Notes under the pieces: model-generated
The model's input: only the letters and a program-made list of their open reading frames with translations
Told to the model about the DNA's origin: nothing
The model's database searches: none
Source: Paracyclopina nana
Lineage: Eukaryota > Arthropoda > Copepoda > Cyclopoida > Cyclopettidae
NCBI GenBank assembly: GCA_019096065.1
Contig: JAGUCH010000003.1
Span: 2,046,001-2,110,000, forward strand
Direction: 5' to 3'
DNA: 64,000 nucleotides
Program-made: the position numbers and the translations under genes
Part shown: piece by piece, positions 46,925-62,300 of the stretch
Position numbering within the stretch: position 1 is the stretch's first letter
Layout: each line of letters begins with the position of its first letter

Positions 46925-49900
46925 ATGAGCAAGTACAAACACAGTGTTGTTGTTGTCAGTGGGCTTATTTCGGTTTTGTTCTCCTCTTTTCCCCTTAGTG
47001 CTGGCCAGTTGGACACAAGTACGAGAAACAGCCTTGTTTTCTTCTGCAAATGAAAAAATCAAACCACTTTCTTCTCCGAAGGAACTTTCACGTCATGCAG
47101 AACCAGTAAAACTGACCAGGGAGAAGGAGACAGGGGACAACTAGATCAACCCTGCGTTTTTCCGTTCACTCTGAGAAATAGGACGTATTGGGCTTGCACC
47201 TATGATTACAGCCACATTACAGGTTGCGCTAATATAACATATCTTGTATAAAAGTTCGTCAAATGAATTGGGTCACATTCAGGCTACAAACCCTGGTGCT
47301 CTACCAAAACCGACAAACTGGGCAACCACATTTCGGGCGGGAAAAATTGGGGCGTGTGCGATGATTTGTACAATTGCCCCATTCCACCAAGACACTGCGG
47401 AGAACCAGTTAGAACTCGAAGGCTGCCAGACGATCGTGATGACAATGTGGACATCATACAAATGCCTTGGATGGCCTCCTTGGGCAAATTTGATGAGTAC
47501 TTCTTTCATCCACTCCAAAGCCAGAATTCATGTTCATTTTTCAGAAAGGTGTGGGGACATCAGTGTGGCGGAAGTCTGGTGACAGCCTTTCATGTGTTGA
47601 CAGCAGCTCATTGCTTCGATCTGCTGGTGGATTTGGAGGGGTACAAAATGAGGCTTGGCTCGGCTGACATGGAAGATCCAGATGAAGGCATCATTGAGCG
47701 CAATGTAGCTCGGATCATGGTGCATCCAAAGTACGTTCAACGAAGGGCCTACTTTGATGTGGGCATCGCGCTGGCTGACAGGCAGATTGAATTCACTGAA
47801 TATGTGCGGCCAGTGTGCCTACCCATGACACCCGTGGACGATGAGAATTATCTGTCTGGGGATTTCGTCACTTTGGCTGGTTGGGGACTGCAGTTCCAAA
47901 CTGCAACCAGGCTGTACGCTCCAACAAAAAGCCTCAAATTACATACGCTACAGGTATATCCATTATAGCGTGTTTTTAAAGAGTGAGTATTGTTGTTTTT
48001 TCAGGTCAACTCAAAAGAGATTTGTGAGAGCATTTTCAGCAGGGAATATTTGAAGGAGTTAAAAATACCCCTGTTCAAACTGGGTCAACTGCCATATGGC
48101 TTCCAAAGTGATATTAGTTGCGTGGGCAACGAATGGCTGCCAGCTGTAAGCAAATACATTTATGATGATGCGGTCAAATTGTAACCACTATTTTCGTTTT
48201 TCAAGGAAGGAGCTTGCGATGGAGATAGCGGGAGTCCAGTGATTCTGCGAATCTCTGGCACAGCTCGTGGCAAGCCCTATTTTGAGCAGCATTACATCGT
48301 TTCAACTGGAGTGGATTGCGAGCTGAAGGCCACAATTTACACGCGAGTGACCAACCGGGAAATCCTGCACTGGATCCAGAAAACCACAGACACGTTTCCC
48401 CTACTTATGGTCGTTGGAGGGTACAATTCAGAAAGGCAACTGATGAACGATGTGGAGCTGCTATCTTCCACGCCGAACAATGTGTGCTCCAAGCATGTGA
48501 GGCCAATTTTCGGCAAGGCTTATCAGACCTCGGATGGCAAAATTGAAAATGAGGCTGAAATGCTCGGTCACGTGGGAGTTTTTGCCAAAGATGCCCCCAG
48601 GGTGTGCGGGGGGAAAAATGCCTTTGACAACCTGGACACTTGCTATGAATTCAACAATACTGCTAACAGGTAAGAGGCTTTCTCTTTATTCCCATTGTAT
48701 CAAAGCACTTAGGTTATTAGGTGGATATGTTTGTCAGTCGATTCATTCCTAGGCTGACGTGATGTTGACAGTTGAAAGCATCCTTTACACCATTTTTCCT
48801 TCTGTGGCTTATGCGATTTGCCTTGCTAATTTCTTCATCAGTTCCGTCATCATCGTAAGCTACCTCGAATCCAAGCCACCAGGATTGCAGTCCTTTTTGG
48901 ACAGGCTTTTGCAGGACCTTCACTATTCTTTGCGCTTATTCTACTTGAGTCTAAACGCAAATAGTATCCTAGCCCTTTGGTACTTTTGGTACCCTGAAGA
49001 ACTGAAAGGTCTTCTTGACTTTGCTCTGATCCCTTCATGCATGCTTTGCCACTCAAGTTTAAGCCTGTTGACGTACTCTATTGGGAAGTACCTCAGTATT
49101 TACCAAAGTACGTTGCTGCACGACCGCATCACTGATGAGGAAAACTGCCTCAAATTCATCCGATTTTTCACGATCGCTTTCACTTTGTGTGGTTTCGCTT
49201 TAAACCAATTTTACATTGGCTCACTGCGATCCACCTTCTTTTATGGGTCTTGGGACTCTTCCTTGTATGTCAAAGGAGGGCCTTTTCCTCATGTCCTCTT
49301 GGGCCTAAATGTGATCATCATGTCTGGGCTGCAAATTCACGCGGAACTCTCGCAGGGAGATTTTTCTTACAAGTCGAAGCATCTCCGAATATTTTTGTCT
49401 TTGACCATCCTAGCTGTTTTCACTGTTATTTTGGGTCACCATAGTCTGGCCAAGGTGCAATTAAGGAAATTGGTCTTCGGTGTTTTGATAGCAGCCTTTT
49501 TTCAAATCCTGTTGCCCATTATGATGATTGCCAAAAATGAAAACTTGAAGAGTTACGCTGTCACGTGGCTCAAGAGACTCCTTGGCATTTCACATGCATA
49601 AAATTTCAGGTGGTATCCAATGCCATCAATGATCCAAAAAAGGTATCAAGGAGCGGCTGTACTAGATGACAAGGGCAATATGTGGGTGATGGGTGGCACT
49701 CACAACTCCAAAGCTGCAGACTCAACGGAGATTTTCGAGTACCAGCCGCCGCCAAGAGTCGGTAGATGGCGCAAAGGTCGACCGTTGCCTGCTGACCTCA
49801 GAGATTCCGGAATTGAAAGCCATTGTGCAGTGAGGCTCAATAACTCTCACATTTTCATAGCTGGAGGTTTTGCCAGGGCTTTTAGGCTCAGAGACTCAAC

Positions 49901-50608
49901 TCTGGACAATGACTCCAACAGGGACAGCACTGACGACATTGGTGGTAAATCTGAATAGCATGATTAATTAATAATGCTGAGTATGATGATATTCTATTCA
50001 AAGAGGTGAACATCGGTGAATTGGGTACCAATCCTAGGCTAGCCACCTTGGACAAAAGGCAAACTGATGATGATGGGTTGGGACCGATTGGAGGTGGTTA
50101 TGCTTTGAAGAGAGCATGGCTTTTTGATGGCTACTACTGGACTGAAATTGCAGATATGCACACTGTCAGAGACAGACCAGCGTGCTCAGTCTTAGAAATG
50201 CCTGATGGAACTGTAAGCTTCTCTGAAGAAGAATTATTTAAAATATTTTCAGATTTTTTCACTTTTATGCATCTATACTAAAAGGTTCGAGTTCTGGTTG
50301 CTGGAGGCTGTAAAGGGTGGTGTGCCAACAATCCAGCCATGAGCGAAGCGGAAATGTACAATCCGGAGACGAATTTATGGCAAAAAGTTGCCGACTTGCC
50401 AACTCCATTGTCTAGTGCAAGAATGGACCTACTAGATGGCATTCCAACTGTTATTGGTGGATATGACAATCGAAACCAAAATGGTCTGTTGTACCAGTAC
50501 ATGATCAATGAAGATGTATGGACACCTCATCCATCTGTACGATTAAGAGTGCCCAGAAGTAGCCCTGCAGTCTTTCAAGTTCCTAAATCATTGTTTAAAT
50601 ATTGCTAA
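46925..50608 (+). CDS. Secreted fibronectin type II - S1 serine protease - kelch propeller protein
   Basis: The signal peptide exon starts at 46925 (MSKYKHSVVVVSG...); its junction to the next exon is unresolved. Later exons are about 47124-47222, 47283-47953, 48005-48145, 48206-48669, 49610-49944, 50004-50212 and 50285-50608, all in phase. A fibronectin type II module spans the first intron: CVFPFTLRNRTYWACTYDY, then WCST and NWGVC. An S1 protease domain follows with CGGSL, TAAHC (His), DVGIAL (Asp) and GDSGSP (Ser). The same exon that carries GDSGSP continues directly into kelch sequence (LLMVVGGYN). Six GG-ending blades are visible: MVVGG, VCGG, VMGG, IAGG, VAGG and VIGG. The pre-protease site reads RTRR then LPDD rather than the usual R-IVGG. 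Function unknown; presumably extracellular proteolysis with propeller-mediated binding. Confidence 0.85.
48762..49601 (+). CDS. Intronless seven-TM protein nested in the kelch intron
   Basis: A single frame of 279 residues starting MLTVESILYTIFP lies completely inside the 940-nt intron (48670-49609) of the protease-kelch gene, on the same strand. Seven hydrophobic segments are visible, at about residues 7-30, 58-80, 88-115, 133-155, 175-195, 210-230 and 238-260. The pattern suggests a GPCR-like or other polytopic protein, but I see no DRY, NPxxY or other signature. A 3' splice site (TTCATTCCTAG) lies 9 nt before the ATG. The stop codon is only 8 nt before the next kelch exon, and no polyadenylation signal lies between, so its mRNA would have to read through or share the host's 3' end. 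A retrocopy origin would explain the lack of introns. Family unknown. Confidence 0.72.
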   Translation: MLTVESILYTIFPSVAYAICLANFFISSVIIVSYLESKPPGLQSFLDRLLQDLHYSLRLFYLSLNANSILALWYFWYPEELKGLLDFALIPSCMLCHSSLSLLTYSIGKYLSIYQSTLLHDRITDEENCLKFIRFFTIAFTLCGFALNQFYIGSLRSTFFYGSWDSSLYVKGGPFPHVLLGLNVIIMSGLQIHAELSQGDFSYKSKHLRIFLSLTILAVFTVILGHHSLAKVQLRKLVFGVLIAAFFQILLPIMMIAKNENLKSYAVTWLKRLLGISHA

Positions 50609-50990: not shown

Positions 50991-51494
50991 ATGATCACAA
51001 CCGCCTTAATTTTCCTAATGATGATCCTGGTTGAGGCCAGACCAACTACTCAAATTGAAGACGATGAAAATGTCTTCGTTGAAGAACTCAAGGTGATGGA
51101 GGTCATCAGCAATCTGGGCCACACAGTATTTGCTGCTCTCCTTGAACAATACGAAGTGGCCCATAACCTCTCCCTGGATGGCCCTTACACTGTCTTCGCC
51201 CCAACTGATGAAGCTTTCAATGACATCAAAGAACGACTGGAAGCCATGACATTCCAAGAAATTCAAATTCTACTCAAACGACACGTAGTTCAAGACTACA
51301 TAAGAATCGAATCTGTCGAAGAGGGCATGGTGGCTAAAACAATGGACACGCAAGAAGTCCTCGAGTTCAGCCAACATGACAATGGTGGGTACACATTTGT
51401 CAAAGGGGAAACCAGTCCCTGGATCGAAATCAGTTTTCCCAACGTCGAAGCAAGAAACGGGCTAGTACACGAAATCAGCAATGTCATAATTTAG
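50991..51494 (+). CDS. Secreted single-FAS1-domain (fasciclin-like) protein
   Basis: One exon encodes 167 residues. Residues 1-17 are a signal peptide (MITTALIFLMMILVEA). The rest is one FAS1 domain: VMEVISNLGHTVFAALLEQY, GPYTVFAPTDEAFNDI (the H1 motif), LKRHVV and an end block GLVHEISNVII resembling the H2 region. FAS1 domains mediate adhesion and matrix contacts; the vertebrate and insect proteins (periostin, TGFBI, fasciclin I) carry four, so this is a minimal version. The frame is open upstream to 50721, but the ATG at 50991 is preferred because it starts the signal peptide. It converges with RAMAC on the other strand, with 44 nt between stop codons. Confidence 0.88.
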   Translation: MITTALIFLMMILVEARPTTQIEDDENVFVEELKVMEVISNLGHTVFAALLEQYEVAHNLSLDGPYTVFAPTDEAFNDIKERLEAMTFQEIQILLKRHVVQDYIRIESVEEGMVAKTMDTQEVLEFSQHDNGGYTFVKGETSPWIEISFPNVEARNGLVHEISNVII

Positions 51495-53437: not shown

Positions 53438-56400
53438 ATGGCCTCTAAAACGGCTGTGGCAAATGTCGCCCGCAAACCCGTACGCAGTTTGCAGGTTTTG
53501 AGCCAAATTGAAATCATCCAGACTCTTCACAAGTCTGTGACGATCATGGAGAACAATTATATGATTAAATTCGTCGAGAAGGACTTATCGGACCACCACA
53601 AGCTGGTCGAGAGGTTAACCGACATCCGCCCCGACAAGGTCGACACGGCTGCCTTCGTTAGGGAGTTCGAAGCCAAGTTGAAGACGAAGGAAGCCGCCGA
53701 GGAGACCAGCAAGAAAAAAATGAAAGGAAGAGTGAAGTCGTCCGAAGGTAAGGCTTTGCCCCGACGTGAGGGCTTGAGGTCATCGAGGCCGAAGCCTTAC
53801 GAGGAGCAATCGCACACCCAGAAGTTCCTGGCTGCCATTGCGGACTTGAGAAAAAATAGTATTAAAGAAAAGGCCCAATTGTTCCCCCGTGGAGTATCCC
53901 CTGGGGACTTTATCAAGTACAAAAAATGCAAGTACATTGAGGACATCAAACGGGTCAGGTGTCACCTGGAGGCCAATTTGAACCGAGCCTGCATGAACAA
54001 CCTGATCGACACGCTGGAAAACATCATGGAATACAACGACCGTGATGAGTCCGGATTCTTGACATTGCTGGTAAACTTTGCCCTTGCAATGTGGAAATCG
54101 ATGCAGTTCACTTTTTGTATCATTTTCAGGCGGTTATGATCTCGTCAGAGACAACTTCAATCAACTTCGCACCTTTGAAGTTATGGAAGGCCTTGGATGC
54201 CAAACGGTTGGTCTCGAGCTCCTATGCTGGCAGTCATTATGGACTTCCTCGAGGTCCTGACTATATAGAAACGCGCACCGAGACCACGTTGATCTTGTTT
54301 GCGCTGAGGTCAGCCTCGAAACTCTCTCATCTGCAAATGGCTGGCTGTGCTTGCGACAACTTCCTTAAGGTTGTCTCTGAAAATTGCTCTGGTCTCAAGT
54401 ATATCGACTTTTCAAACTCCTATGTATCTGACTGGGGTTTCTATCACTTGGCTGGTCTCACCGAGGTTGAGAACCGTTCAGTGAGGTTGTCCCGAAAGTG
54501 CAAAAGCTCTGAGCAGCAACCGTGTCCAAAATTGAGTAGCGACCTCGTCAAAACCAAAAAGGGCTGTGAAAACCTTACCCACCTGATTGCCAACGATTTG
54601 ATGAGCATTTCGTGGCCTCCGAGGTCAAGCAAAAAGCTGATCAAGCCTATGTATTACGCCAACAACAATGGGTGTACGGATTACATGTCCTTTGACACAC
54701 GATGCCCCAAAGACAGTGGTTTTGTGATGGCTCTTCAGTATCTGCCAAAGCTTAAGGTAGTTTTCTACAGGCTTAAAGTTGCCAGAGTTGCGTTTTCTTT
54801 ACTTCTATTTTTAAGGTTTTTATGACCGAAATTGGAGGCCGCGCTGTTGAGTCACTAATATCTGACGAGTATGGTCGCGTCGCAAAACGGAAAAAGAGAT
54901 CCCTCCTGTTGCCGAATCTTGAGATGATCAGCGAGGCGAACATGGACACGGATCTTATGTGCTGCATTCTCCAGACCTGTCCCAACGTCAAGGTTATCAA
55001 GGTGAAGAGCAAGCATGTGAGCGGTGGTGAGTCCGATGAAACTTGGCTCAATGCCTTGGATCAATTTTCGCACCGACTCGAAGAGGTCAGCATCACAGAA
55101 TCGGATTTTAAAGGAGCATGTCTCGCCAACAGGCTCTTGAACCAAGAAAATGGTCGCCGATTGACACGGCTTGACTTGAGGGGACTTGGTTTCATGAGAC
55201 TGTCCTGGCTTCAGCAGATCAAGAAGAATTGTCAGAATCTTGTGTGTCTCGTGATAGGTAAGTAACCTTTAAGCTCCAAAGCTTTCTCTAATTTTCTTAG
55301 AGGGACCTAGGCACGGTTTTGGTAGATGAAAAAAAAACCCAACTTTTTAGGAGAAAGCAACGGGGCATAGCTGTGAATAACAATGTTTTATTATTATCCT
55401 TTTGTACGTATCTAACAGATCAATTAGTTCGTTGAGCCATGTTGCTCGACATTTCACCATGAGTGGATCCACACCACGGAAGTTTTAGGCATCGCTTGGC
55501 ATGCGTGTGCCGACGATTGCGTGTAGAGAGCGAATCCTGTATCGCACGGTGGAAAGTAGTCACATGGCTGTATTGGCTCCACATCAGCTACTGGTTGGGA
55601 TTCTGGTGGTACAATGTTGGGTTCACTTTCATTGGCGTTGTCTGATGTCTCATTGGTAGCCCCGGAAGTTTCCGCTGCCATTTCTTGGTCGTTCTCGGCA
55701 GCCATAGCTTGTTGGCTTCTCGTTGATGATCTTCGAGTCCACGTTCTTTTTACCCTGGCTGGTAAATTCTTGATGACAAACTCTCCGTTTTTGACGAACA
55801 CCATTTTTATCTTTGGTTTGCTGGGTTTTGGGGATTCTTTGGGCGCAGGTTTAGGCGCAGATTTAAGCGCAGGTTTTGGCGCAGGCTTAGGCGCAGGCTT
55901 AGGCGCAGGTTTAGGTAAAGGTTTAGGTAAAGGTTCAGGCGCAGGTTTAGACGAAGGTTTCTCCATGAGATTAGCCTCGAGCTCCAGCTTGGCCTTGAGC
56001 TCAGCCTTCCTGATTTCTTCCAACTCCTTTTCGTATTGTTTGCTCCATCCAACCTTAGGCTTATAGGCCACGAGAGACTCTTCAATGTATCTGGCCGTCC
56101 AACCTGACTTGATCTTGTAAGGTGACATCTTGATCCGTCCTCTCTTGCGTAGCTACTGTGGCTCGATTACAGGTGGCTGATGCTTCCGTGAGCCTGCGCT
56201 ACGCCACTCGGAAGATAGCAGTCATCCCGGAAAATCGAAAGCAGAACGGGTTGGCGTCTGCTAGAGGGAATGTTCCAGCACCTCTCAAATATTGGTCAAT
56301 CAAATGTACCTTTTCTTCATGTTGAAACGATGCGATGGTGAATTTACAGGTCGATTTTCTTGAGTTCTTTTAAAAGAAGGTATGACTCAAATGTTTTTCA

Positions 56401-59308: not shown

Positions 59309-62300
59309 ATGAAGCTTCTTTGGCTTCTTTTCATGTCAGTTCTTGTCGAAAAGTCTCAGAATGCGTTGGCGGAAGATCGCAACATTCACATGATCCCGAG
59401 GCATAATCGAAAAATGCGTAAATCGCGGCCTCCAGTGTTCAAAAAAGAGTGGAATGACTCGATACCGCAGCCAATTCACACCTACGCAGCCTGGCCCTTT
59501 GTTCTCAACTGTTCGGTCAAAGGCCACCCAAGGCCGGAAGTCCACTGGTCCAAAAACGGCCTTTTGATCCAGAGTGAAGATGACAGGCCGTAAGTTGCGC
59601 CTTCAACGGCTCTACTGGGTAAAGGCACCAAGGGCAAAGGCATTATGATTAAAGGCTCCCTGGTGAAAAGCGCGCTGATAACGGGCAAAGGCAACACTGA
59701 TAAAAGGCTACTTAAGCAGAATGGTATCACAATTTTTATTTATGTTGCACAAATTTATCTGTTGATATGTATTTTCTTCAAGCCGATCAAGAGGAAAAAA
59801 TGGGAGGCCAATTGCACTTTTGACCAGAGCAGCCAAGTTGCTATTATCCTTCTTTGAGTAGTCACTCCTTGAGTTGTGCAAAATGCTGAAAATAAGCGCT
59901 GTTTTTGGCGCTTTAAGTTTCCCTTGTTTGAAAACTTGCACCTTTGAGCAATGTTGCCTTAGCTCATAACGCTTAGCGTGCTTTTTAACAGGTAGCCTTT
60001 CATCGCCTTTGCCCTTGCAAAGTGGGTTTATTTGCCAATTTCACGCGCACGGAAAAAAGTTGCCAAATCAGCGTAGAACCTCTTTCTTGTTGGCTTTAAG
60101 CTAAAATTATTGCATCCTAGCGCTTGGAAAAGCAAGCGAGAGTAGCCAATTCTGGTGGATAATCAGTGTATGCTATGAGTTTGACACTCAATTGGATTTG
60201 TTTGGAATCAAAAGTTATGCTCCATTTTATGCCAAATTGCTGTTCTTCTGAGTTTATCAACTTTTTCCCAAAAATGATTTTTTCTGCTCCAAATTCGAAT
60301 TTTTATGAGTCAATTTACATTAATTTGTGCTCTTTAGATAGCCAAGAAGTCATGCAAATGAGAAACCAAAAATTGGTGCTAAAATCGGAAATCTGCAATT
60401 TGACATAATTTCTCGTACGCGTCAAATCGGCTTTTTCATTCACTTTGCTCTGGTGCCTTTGGACAGTATACTCCTATCAACATGTCAACCCAACTTTTTC
60501 GAATTTTTTAAGGCTTCATTTTTATCGTTTCAATTAGGGGCTCAAGTAATAAGTACATTTTCCTGAAAAAGAGGCAGATTCTCAAGTCGGAGGTGTCACT
60601 TCCTGGTGACAGCGGAAATTACACTTGCTTTGCTGCCAATGAGGCTGGCAGCGTGACACGAACCTTTGAGGTCAACATTGAAACCAGGACTGTAGCCCAG
60701 CCACCAATCATCGAAAAAGGTAGCCCTGGCAATCACACTGTTGTCATAGGGTCTGGTGTGACATTGGCATGTCCCATTGTCAATTCTGACCCAATGGACC
60801 CCTACGAAATTCGGTGGCTACGCATCAAGCCTGAATTTGCCGGCCTCGCGGACTTTGGGGATGCAGGAGATGTGGTTGTCTTTGATGAAATCCGCAATTG
60901 TCCTTCCACAGTTGGATCTTGCGTCGAAACTTTCTCAGGCTTTCGAATTGACAGCTCAGATGCGTTGATCTTGTCCAACTTAACCCTGGACAACTCAACC
61001 AATTTCTGGTAAATATTGAGTGCATTTTTCATTTTTCTCGAGAAATGTCTTTAATGTCATAAAATATGAAACTAATTTCTTGATTGCAGCTGCCTTGCTC
61101 AAAATATCTATGGAAGTACCCATTCATGTGGCCACGTGAAAGTTGTCTCTGAAATCATTGATCCCTCCAAGCTGAAAACATCGACTGTGGTTGGCATAGT
61201 GATTGCTGTCCTCATGGTGATTGTCATCTCAATCTCTTCGTTTATTTTCGGCTACAAGGAAATGCAGCGCCGTAAGAAAACTGAACAGTACGCCCGTTCG
61301 GTTGTGGTCTGGACCAAGAAAATCATGATTTCGTTGGAGAATGACACGAACAGCAATAATTGTTCGTTTGATTCATATCAAAGCCCCGTGGTATTCATTG
61401 AAAAGCAACGTGTCACCTCCGAATCCTCGATTGAGAGCCCCTTCGATGAATACGAATACCCCTGTGATCCCCTTTGGGAATTCGACAGAAACAAGCTCAA
61501 AATAATGGAAGTCCTTGGCGAAGGAGCCTTTGGAGTTGTGTACAAAGCTGAGGCCAAGTTTGAGGATGGCAGCAAAATTGTTGCATTCAAAACGCTCAAA
61601 GAAGGTATCACATTTCCAAAATTAACTTGTATTGTCACATTGAGATTCCTTTATGTAGGGCACACTGACAGTGATGTCATTGACTTGGTCAAAGAGATGA
61701 CAATCATGAAGCAGATTCCACGGCATGACAACATTGTCAACCTGTTGGGTGTTTGCACACAGCCCAAGGGCCAAAAGCTACTTGTCATTGTGGAGTATGC
61801 CAAGTTTGGCAACCTCAAAAATTACCTCATGGACCGACGTTACGGAGTGCGGTGCCAAAGCTGTCAGAGCTCCGATGGTTACCTCGAACCGGACCGGCAT
61901 TTACTCATCCAAGGAACTGGATGGAAGTGTCCTCAAAATTGCATTTTGAGCCTCGAAGACATGCTTAAAATTGGCTGGCAAGTAGCCAAAGGCATGGAGT
62001 ATTTGCATTTTCGCAAATGCATCCACAGAGATCTAGCAGCAAGGAACATCCTTGTGTGCGAAAACAATCTGGTGAAAATAGCAGATTTTGGAATGGCCAG
62101 GTATGACATGCTAGCAATCAATTGATTAATAGCCTAGTTTCACCTATTTAATTTTAGGAGTATCGAGGATAGTGGATACTACCGAAAACTCACCGATGGA
62201 AAGCTCCCCGTGAAATGGATGGCGCCAGAGACCCTTTTTGATGATCGAACTTATTCCAGCCAAAGTGACATCTGGTCATTTGGAATCTTACTGTGGGAAA

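Follow-up and report, generated by a model that had tools for sequence, protein, structure and literature searches.

The question raised by this locus is whether one gene joins a fibronectin type II (fn2) domain, a serine protease of the S1 type and a kelch propeller, and if so what kind of protease it encodes. The locus lies at positions 46925–50608 on the forward strand of a 64,000-nucleotide stretch of the genome of the copepod Paracyclopina nana (contig JAGUCH010000003.1, positions 2,046,001 to 2,110,000; assembly GCA_019096065.1), which we call the window. A preliminary description of the window had proposed a single secreted protein with these three domains. We found that one gene does encode all three, with fn2 first, S1 next and kelch last, and that it is a member of a family with two copies in this genome and representatives in two Tigriopus species. 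The gene has nine exons and eight introns, all with GT-AG ends, and specifies 776 residues with no stop codon before the final one: a hydrophobic N-terminus, the fn2 domain, the S1 domain with its His172/Asp221/Ser341 triad, and the propeller.

The domain assignments come from a Pfam scan of an initial 792-residue model, with curated cut-offs. The Trypsin profile (PF00089) matched with an E-value of 1.7e-27 (97.1 bits; cut-off 20.6), fn2 (PF00040) with 5.2e-6 (26.8 bits; cut-off 22.2; profile positions 1–33 of 42), and Kelch_1 with 5.1e-16, over its cut-off, while the Attractin/LZTR1-type kelch profile PF24981 reached 36.5 bits, below its cut-off of 50. The same scan gave no match to EGF or kringle domains at E-values up to 0.01. 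Both kelch repeats and a propeller fold were found, VIA-align being applied to the propeller part only, and the propeller is six-bladed and cysteine-rich, with eight cysteines that by eye recur in four relatives. The fn2 domain has four cysteines (C56, C70, C84 and C104). In the predicted model of a relative, no more than a few residues separate the S1 domain from the first strand of the propeller. By eye, the N-terminus is hydrophobic in the window protein, where it looks like a signal peptide, and in two relatives (database proteins P0001 and P0051), in both of which the hydrophobic stretch is likewise followed by the residues QLD. Because of this N-terminus, the fn2 domain, the cysteine pairs of the S1 domain and the eight propeller cysteines, the protein is likely to be secreted.

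The join between S1 and kelch lies within a single exon. One open frame (48185–48673) spans both the catalytic GDSGSP motif and the first kelch Gly-Gly block (LLMVVGGYN), as the preliminary description had stated, and relatives confirm the order. We searched a database of 5.8 billion proteins at E-values up to 0.001, once with the single protein (42 matches) and once with a six-row alignment (64 matches), and found six full-length relatives with the order fn2, S1, kelch, at 35–65% identity over 93–97% of the length. They are P0001 (65% over 97%), P0005 (TCALIF_05926 of Tigriopus californicus; 46% over 93%), P0004 (Tk00444, taken by its name for a T. kingsejongensis protein; 45% over 93%), P0043 (43% over 95%), P0044 (41% over 94%) and P0045 (35% over 93%). 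The two Tigriopus proteins each have two fn2 stretches. A further relative, P0002, enters the propeller and then diverges from it. P0001 is an unbroken 800-residue frame whose longest contig measures 2467 nucleotides, too short to hold the introns of the window gene; we take P0001 for cDNA. Beyond the propeller, P0043 and P0044 have long, acidic, tyrosine-rich C-terminal tails, in which repeated cysteine motifs such as C[YF]xG[ED]xCC can be seen by eye.

The P. nana genome (91.95 Mb, 10 contigs) contains at least 48 exon-level matches to P0001, and all three parts of the protein occur together in at least two places. The second copy (locus L009, 1596–7976; G000:C3:5997440-6003775) is on the same 11.6-Mb contig as the window gene; from fn2 through S1 to the first kelch strands, the two are about 52% identical. 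Here the exon of the second copy breaks off at the codon that also closes exon 6 of the window gene, and an exon with the conserved tryptophan follows about 0.5 kb further on. In all eight spliced sequences (the window protein and seven relatives) the residue of the split codon is followed by this tryptophan, which speaks against an unrelated gene starting at 49610; and the continuation of the same protein in the relatives and the second copy speaks against transcripts that stop ahead of the kelch exons.

We made a maximum-likelihood tree of S1 domains from 39 sequences out of 92 (the window protein plus 91 proteins from the database), keeping those with a single S1 match longer than 200 residues; P0008, P0010, P0015, P0028, P0034 and others, as well as the family fragments P0053, P0055 and P0056, were left out. 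The 18 family rows of the 39 fall on one side of a single branch with support of 100/99, adjoined by P0009 (T. californicus) and P0011. The tree is midpoint-rooted, and calling the family a clade presumes that the other S1 domains lie outside it.

The nine-exon model reproduces the start at 46925, the end at 50608 and the two exons on either side of the long intron as they had been predicted beforehand. Exon 1 (46925–47018) carries the start codon and the hydrophobic N-terminus up to GQLDT, with its donor at 47019; its junction 47018/47082 was picked among many alternative 5' splices by donor and acceptor sequence and intron length. It is the weakest point of the model. Exon 2 (47082–47222) encodes the first half of the fn2 domain, and exon 3 (47283–47496) its second half, Cys117, the activation segment RTRRLPDD, which lacks IVGG, and the start of S1. 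The next 48 nucleotides (47497–47544) were coding in the initial 792-residue model, but we take them as an intron, giving 776 residues, because they have GT-AG ends and five aligned relatives show a gap of 14–17 residues opposite them. Exon 4 (47545–47953) contains the His172 codon (47609–47611) and the Asp221 codon (47756–47758), and exon 5 (48005–48145) continues the S1 domain. Exon 6 (48206–48669) holds GDSGSP, the Ser341 codon (48227–48229), Gly335 (position 189 in the usual numbering), the end of S1 and the beginning of kelch. The long intron (48670–49609) measures 940 nucleotides, as against 48–72 for the other seven. The propeller continues in exon 7 (49610–49944), which starts at the split codon before Trp489, and in exon 8 (50004–50212); exon 9 (50285–50608) supplies the last kelch blades, the C-terminal Cys776 and the stop. 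The long intron is probably old, since its position is shared to the codon with L009 and fits the ends of the partial relatives described below.

The protease departs from the usual S1 pattern at its activation site and in its specificity pocket. Alignment with the relatives places His172, Asp221 and Ser341 in the order expected of an S1 protease, and the surrounding motifs CGGSL, AHC and GDSG are strongly conserved in the family, with GSP in place of GGP in most members. The window protein also has Asp194 and the Cys117/Cys241 pair. The usual activation of S1 proteases releases a new N-terminus of the IVGG type behind a basic residue. We counted the residues at the activation site and at position 189 by eye in the alignment listing, with the register of position 189 taken from an alignment with prostasin. 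The activation site is readable in 13 of 21 family rows (the window protein, P0001–P0005, P0043–P0045, P0049, P0051, P0053 and P0056); none of these 13 has IVGG, and none has Gly-Gly between the first cysteine and the PW block. Among rows from outside the family, 12 of 22 are readable at this site; IVGG is found in nine of them, the exceptions being P0011, P0028 and P0075. At position 189, Asp is found in none of the 17 readable family rows, which have Gly (11, including the window protein), Thr (4), Ser (1) or Met (1); on this residue we rejected a trypsin-like specificity. The stretch 214–226 is shortened, reading mostly VSTGxDCxLxATIYTR as opposed to VSWGxxCAxxxxPGVYxR. P0009, one of the nearest outgroup rows, has Gly at 189, and its activation site reads Arg-Val-Ala-Gly. 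This suggests that the alteration of the pocket came first and the loss of the activation motif later.

The reading that we favor, with a probability of about 0.5, is that these proteins are noncanonical S1 proteases of a copepod-type family, secreted and held in place by two binding domains. Once outside the cell, the protein would attach to matrix, cuticle or partner proteins through its fn2 domain and six-bladed propeller, and its S1 domain, lying close to the propeller, would cut a nearby substrate. With Gly, Thr or Ser at position 189 and a shortened 214–226 stretch, we would expect no preference for Arg or Lys but rather for small or medium uncharged P1 residues, as in elastase- or chymotrypsin-like enzymes. 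Because IVGG is missing, the usual insertion of Ile16 is probably not what activates the enzyme; the task of ordering the active site may fall to a partner or to the propeller itself. Docking through the fn2 domain and the propeller, cutting after uncharged residues and control without Ile16 insertion are all deduced from sequence. A bolder version, in which a whole extracellular S1 clade has dispensed with N-terminal insertion as its means of activation and responds instead, allosterically and reversibly, to ligands bound by the fused propeller, with elastase-like specificity, strikes us as rather unlikely.

Several observations weigh against the favored reading. Absence of Asp189 extends beyond the family, to P0009 and P0025 (both with Gly) and P0011 (with Lys). 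In P0045, a pseudoprotease that represents 17 member sequences and keeps the architecture, His57 is replaced by Ser and Ser195 by Met, so that at least one line can do without catalysis. In both models the activation segment has a predicted local distance difference test (pLDDT) score below 50 and thus gives no structural backing for a particular activation route. Pairs of a basic residue and Leu (RR|L, RK|L and similar) lie near the expected zymogen cut in several members, so that normal activation in some altered form is conceivable.

The alternative that we take most seriously, though we hold it to be well short of even odds, is that the S1 domain is a noncatalytic scaffold, a serine protease homologue that binds and whose triad is a leftover. 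The clip-domain cofactors of insects are binding homologues of this sort. The absence of IVGG in 13 of 13 and of Asp189 in 17 of 17 readable members, the shortened 214–226 stretch and the substitutions in P0045 all agree with it. However, every other readable member retains the triad residues across deep divergence (about 45% identity to Tigriopus), as drift would not, and the surrounding motifs CGGSL, AHC and GDSG are strongly conserved. Alternatively, the protein might be an ordinary secreted zymogen with a role in digestion, clotting or melanisation, which would be cleaved behind Arg125 and use Leu126 for its activation, with a passive propeller. This is unlikely: although the dibasic RR|L aligns opposite K|ILNG of prophenoloxidase-activating factor I, and Asp194 and the Cys117/Cys241 pair are in place, the residues after the basic site vary (LPD, LPE, LPN, LTD, LED, SSS, ASS, IDR and others), Gly-Gly precedes the PW block in none of the 13 readable members, and the window protein is two residues longer up to that block than the activating factor.

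Another reading, compatible with any of the others, is that the gene makes two products, a short fn2-S1 protein by read-through of the long intron and the full protein by splicing. Seven partial relatives reach the site of this intron; five of them (P0003, P0047, P0048, P0050 and P0054) end exactly at its codon and two (P0046 and P0052) a few codons later, while an eighth, P0055, ends earlier. P0003 represents 36 member sequences, and on retention of the intron the window gene would stop at once (NR, then TAA), just past the first kelch strands. Against this, the genomic exon of the paralog ends alike, and the N-terminus of P0003 resembles a read-through of intron 1, so that open reading frames (ORFs) called on unspliced DNA are the simpler explanation; we prefer it to a conserved short product, and consider two products quite unlikely. 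Least credible of all is a fusion created by neighboring genes or by an assembly or splicing error. The 940-nucleotide intron, with a complete foreign ORF between two kelch exons, is where one would suspect a false join. We rejected this artefact because S1 and kelch meet within exon 6, and because the same order is found in two Tigriopus gene models, in four unbroken frames from other sources and in the second genomic copy.

Compared with other S1A proteases (PF00089), the family shares the fold, the His-Asp-Ser order, four possible structural disulfide pairs and GDSG, and differs in lacking an IVGG-type N-terminus and Asp189, in the short 214–226 stretch, in having mostly GSP for GGP and in the propeller fused behind. 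A likeness to factor XII and hepatocyte growth factor (HGF) activator had been noted beforehand. It holds for the pair of domain types, with fn2 N-terminal to S1 in both, and goes no further, because the window family lacks IVGG and Asp189. Factor XII and HGF activator are activated zymogens of trypsin-like specificity with both of these features, and have EGF and kringle domains but no kelch. Closer to home, P0008, P0010, P0059, P0060 and P0015 (of T. kingsejongensis) also have fn2 upstream of S1, but they have no kelch, the first four have IVGG, Asp189 is present where readable, and they are only 26–29% identical to the window protein. The kelch propellers of KLHL/Keap1 proteins (2vpj, 1u6d) belong to intracellular E3 adaptors with BTB and BACK domains, whereas the window propeller is of a secreted type with eight cysteines common to its relatives. 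A kelch propeller is also shared with the Attractin/LZTR1 type, which has no protease domain; attractin is an extracellular mosaic protein.

The same three kinds of domain also occur together in P0028, P0034, P0035 and P0036, but there S1 comes first and fn2 after it, with zero to two TSP1 domains before kelch (TSP1 is present in two of the four), and the S1 domain has Asp189. In a seven-sequence set, the kelch parts of P0028 and P0034 match the window protein only in stray repeats (best E-value 1e-4). A common origin is thus unsupported, and these proteins are probably a separate fusion. In precomputed Pfam lists (P0017 alone was rescanned), fn2 is also combined with subtilase and CAP domains (P0017, P0020, P0029, P0031 and P0033), with an animal-peroxidase-type domain (PF03098; P0032) and with a C-type-lectin-type domain (PF00059; P0086).

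The earlier impression that this domain order belongs to no described family was borne out: a full-text literature search, outside whose range lie most subscription papers and InterPro-type databases, found no description of fn2-S1-kelch, and the word kelch is absent from the main text of PMC8301441, PMC7201535 and PMC13389597. Papers in which kelch and protease terms occur together (PMC4265353, PMC3972170, PMC7738191 and PMC12915138) do not, to judge by their titles, deal with this fusion. This conserved order couples a protease to a type of propeller that is best known for reading peptide motifs inside cells, and, as no readable member has IVGG, the family offers a way to study activation that does without the insertion of Ile16. 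It may also belong to a little-known secretory toolkit of copepods. Among the domains of the salmon louse, which is a parasitic copepod, fn2 is reported to be the most expanded, with more than 200 copies in more than 80 genes, and its functions are given as undetermined (PMC7201535); trypsin-LNR proteins have been described in Oithona nana (PMC8301441). The 92-Mb P. nana genome has 38 exon-level fn2 matches.

The long intron contains an intronless ORF of 279 codons on the same strand (48762–49601), whose stop lies 8 nucleotides before the 3' splice site. It lies in a run of 282 codons without a stop, longer than any in 40 simulated 64-kb sequences (at most 244), although other real frames in the window are equally long, and codon bias did not clearly separate its frame from the others. 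We found no relative among 861 candidates from the 5.8-billion-protein set, and neither a Pfam family nor a solved structure matched. Within the P. nana genome, on the other hand, the ORF matches 18 other dispersed places (E-values from 2.4e-17 to 2.4e-4), 17 of them without internal stops, and none inside the paralogous protease gene. The ORF has six hydrophobic stretches by our count; four paralogs that we read whole (L011, L014, L015 and L016, among the eight loci L010–L017, one of which is the window copy) have 276–326 codons and seven or eight such stretches, and share the motifs K.PG.Q and Y[LI][SC]IY. One of them, L011, has a match to DUF6644 below the cut-off (17.8 bits; cut-off 27). 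The nested ORF is unrelated to its host gene, and with its kin it looks like an undescribed intronless family of receptor-like proteins with seven transmembrane segments.

Elsewhere in the window, a forward frame with a hydrophobic N-terminus and a fasciclin (FAS1) domain (50991–51494; Pfam 75.5 bits) lies directly behind the protease gene. A 12-bp tandem repeat of 10.2 copies (55838–55960) falls within a minus-strand frame (55454–56152) that encodes a Lys-Pro-Ala-Pro repeat. Finally, a forward frame at 61076–62125 combines a hydrophobic segment with a tyrosine-kinase-type domain (PF07714, 147.6 bits) and resembles an exon from a receptor tyrosine kinase gene.
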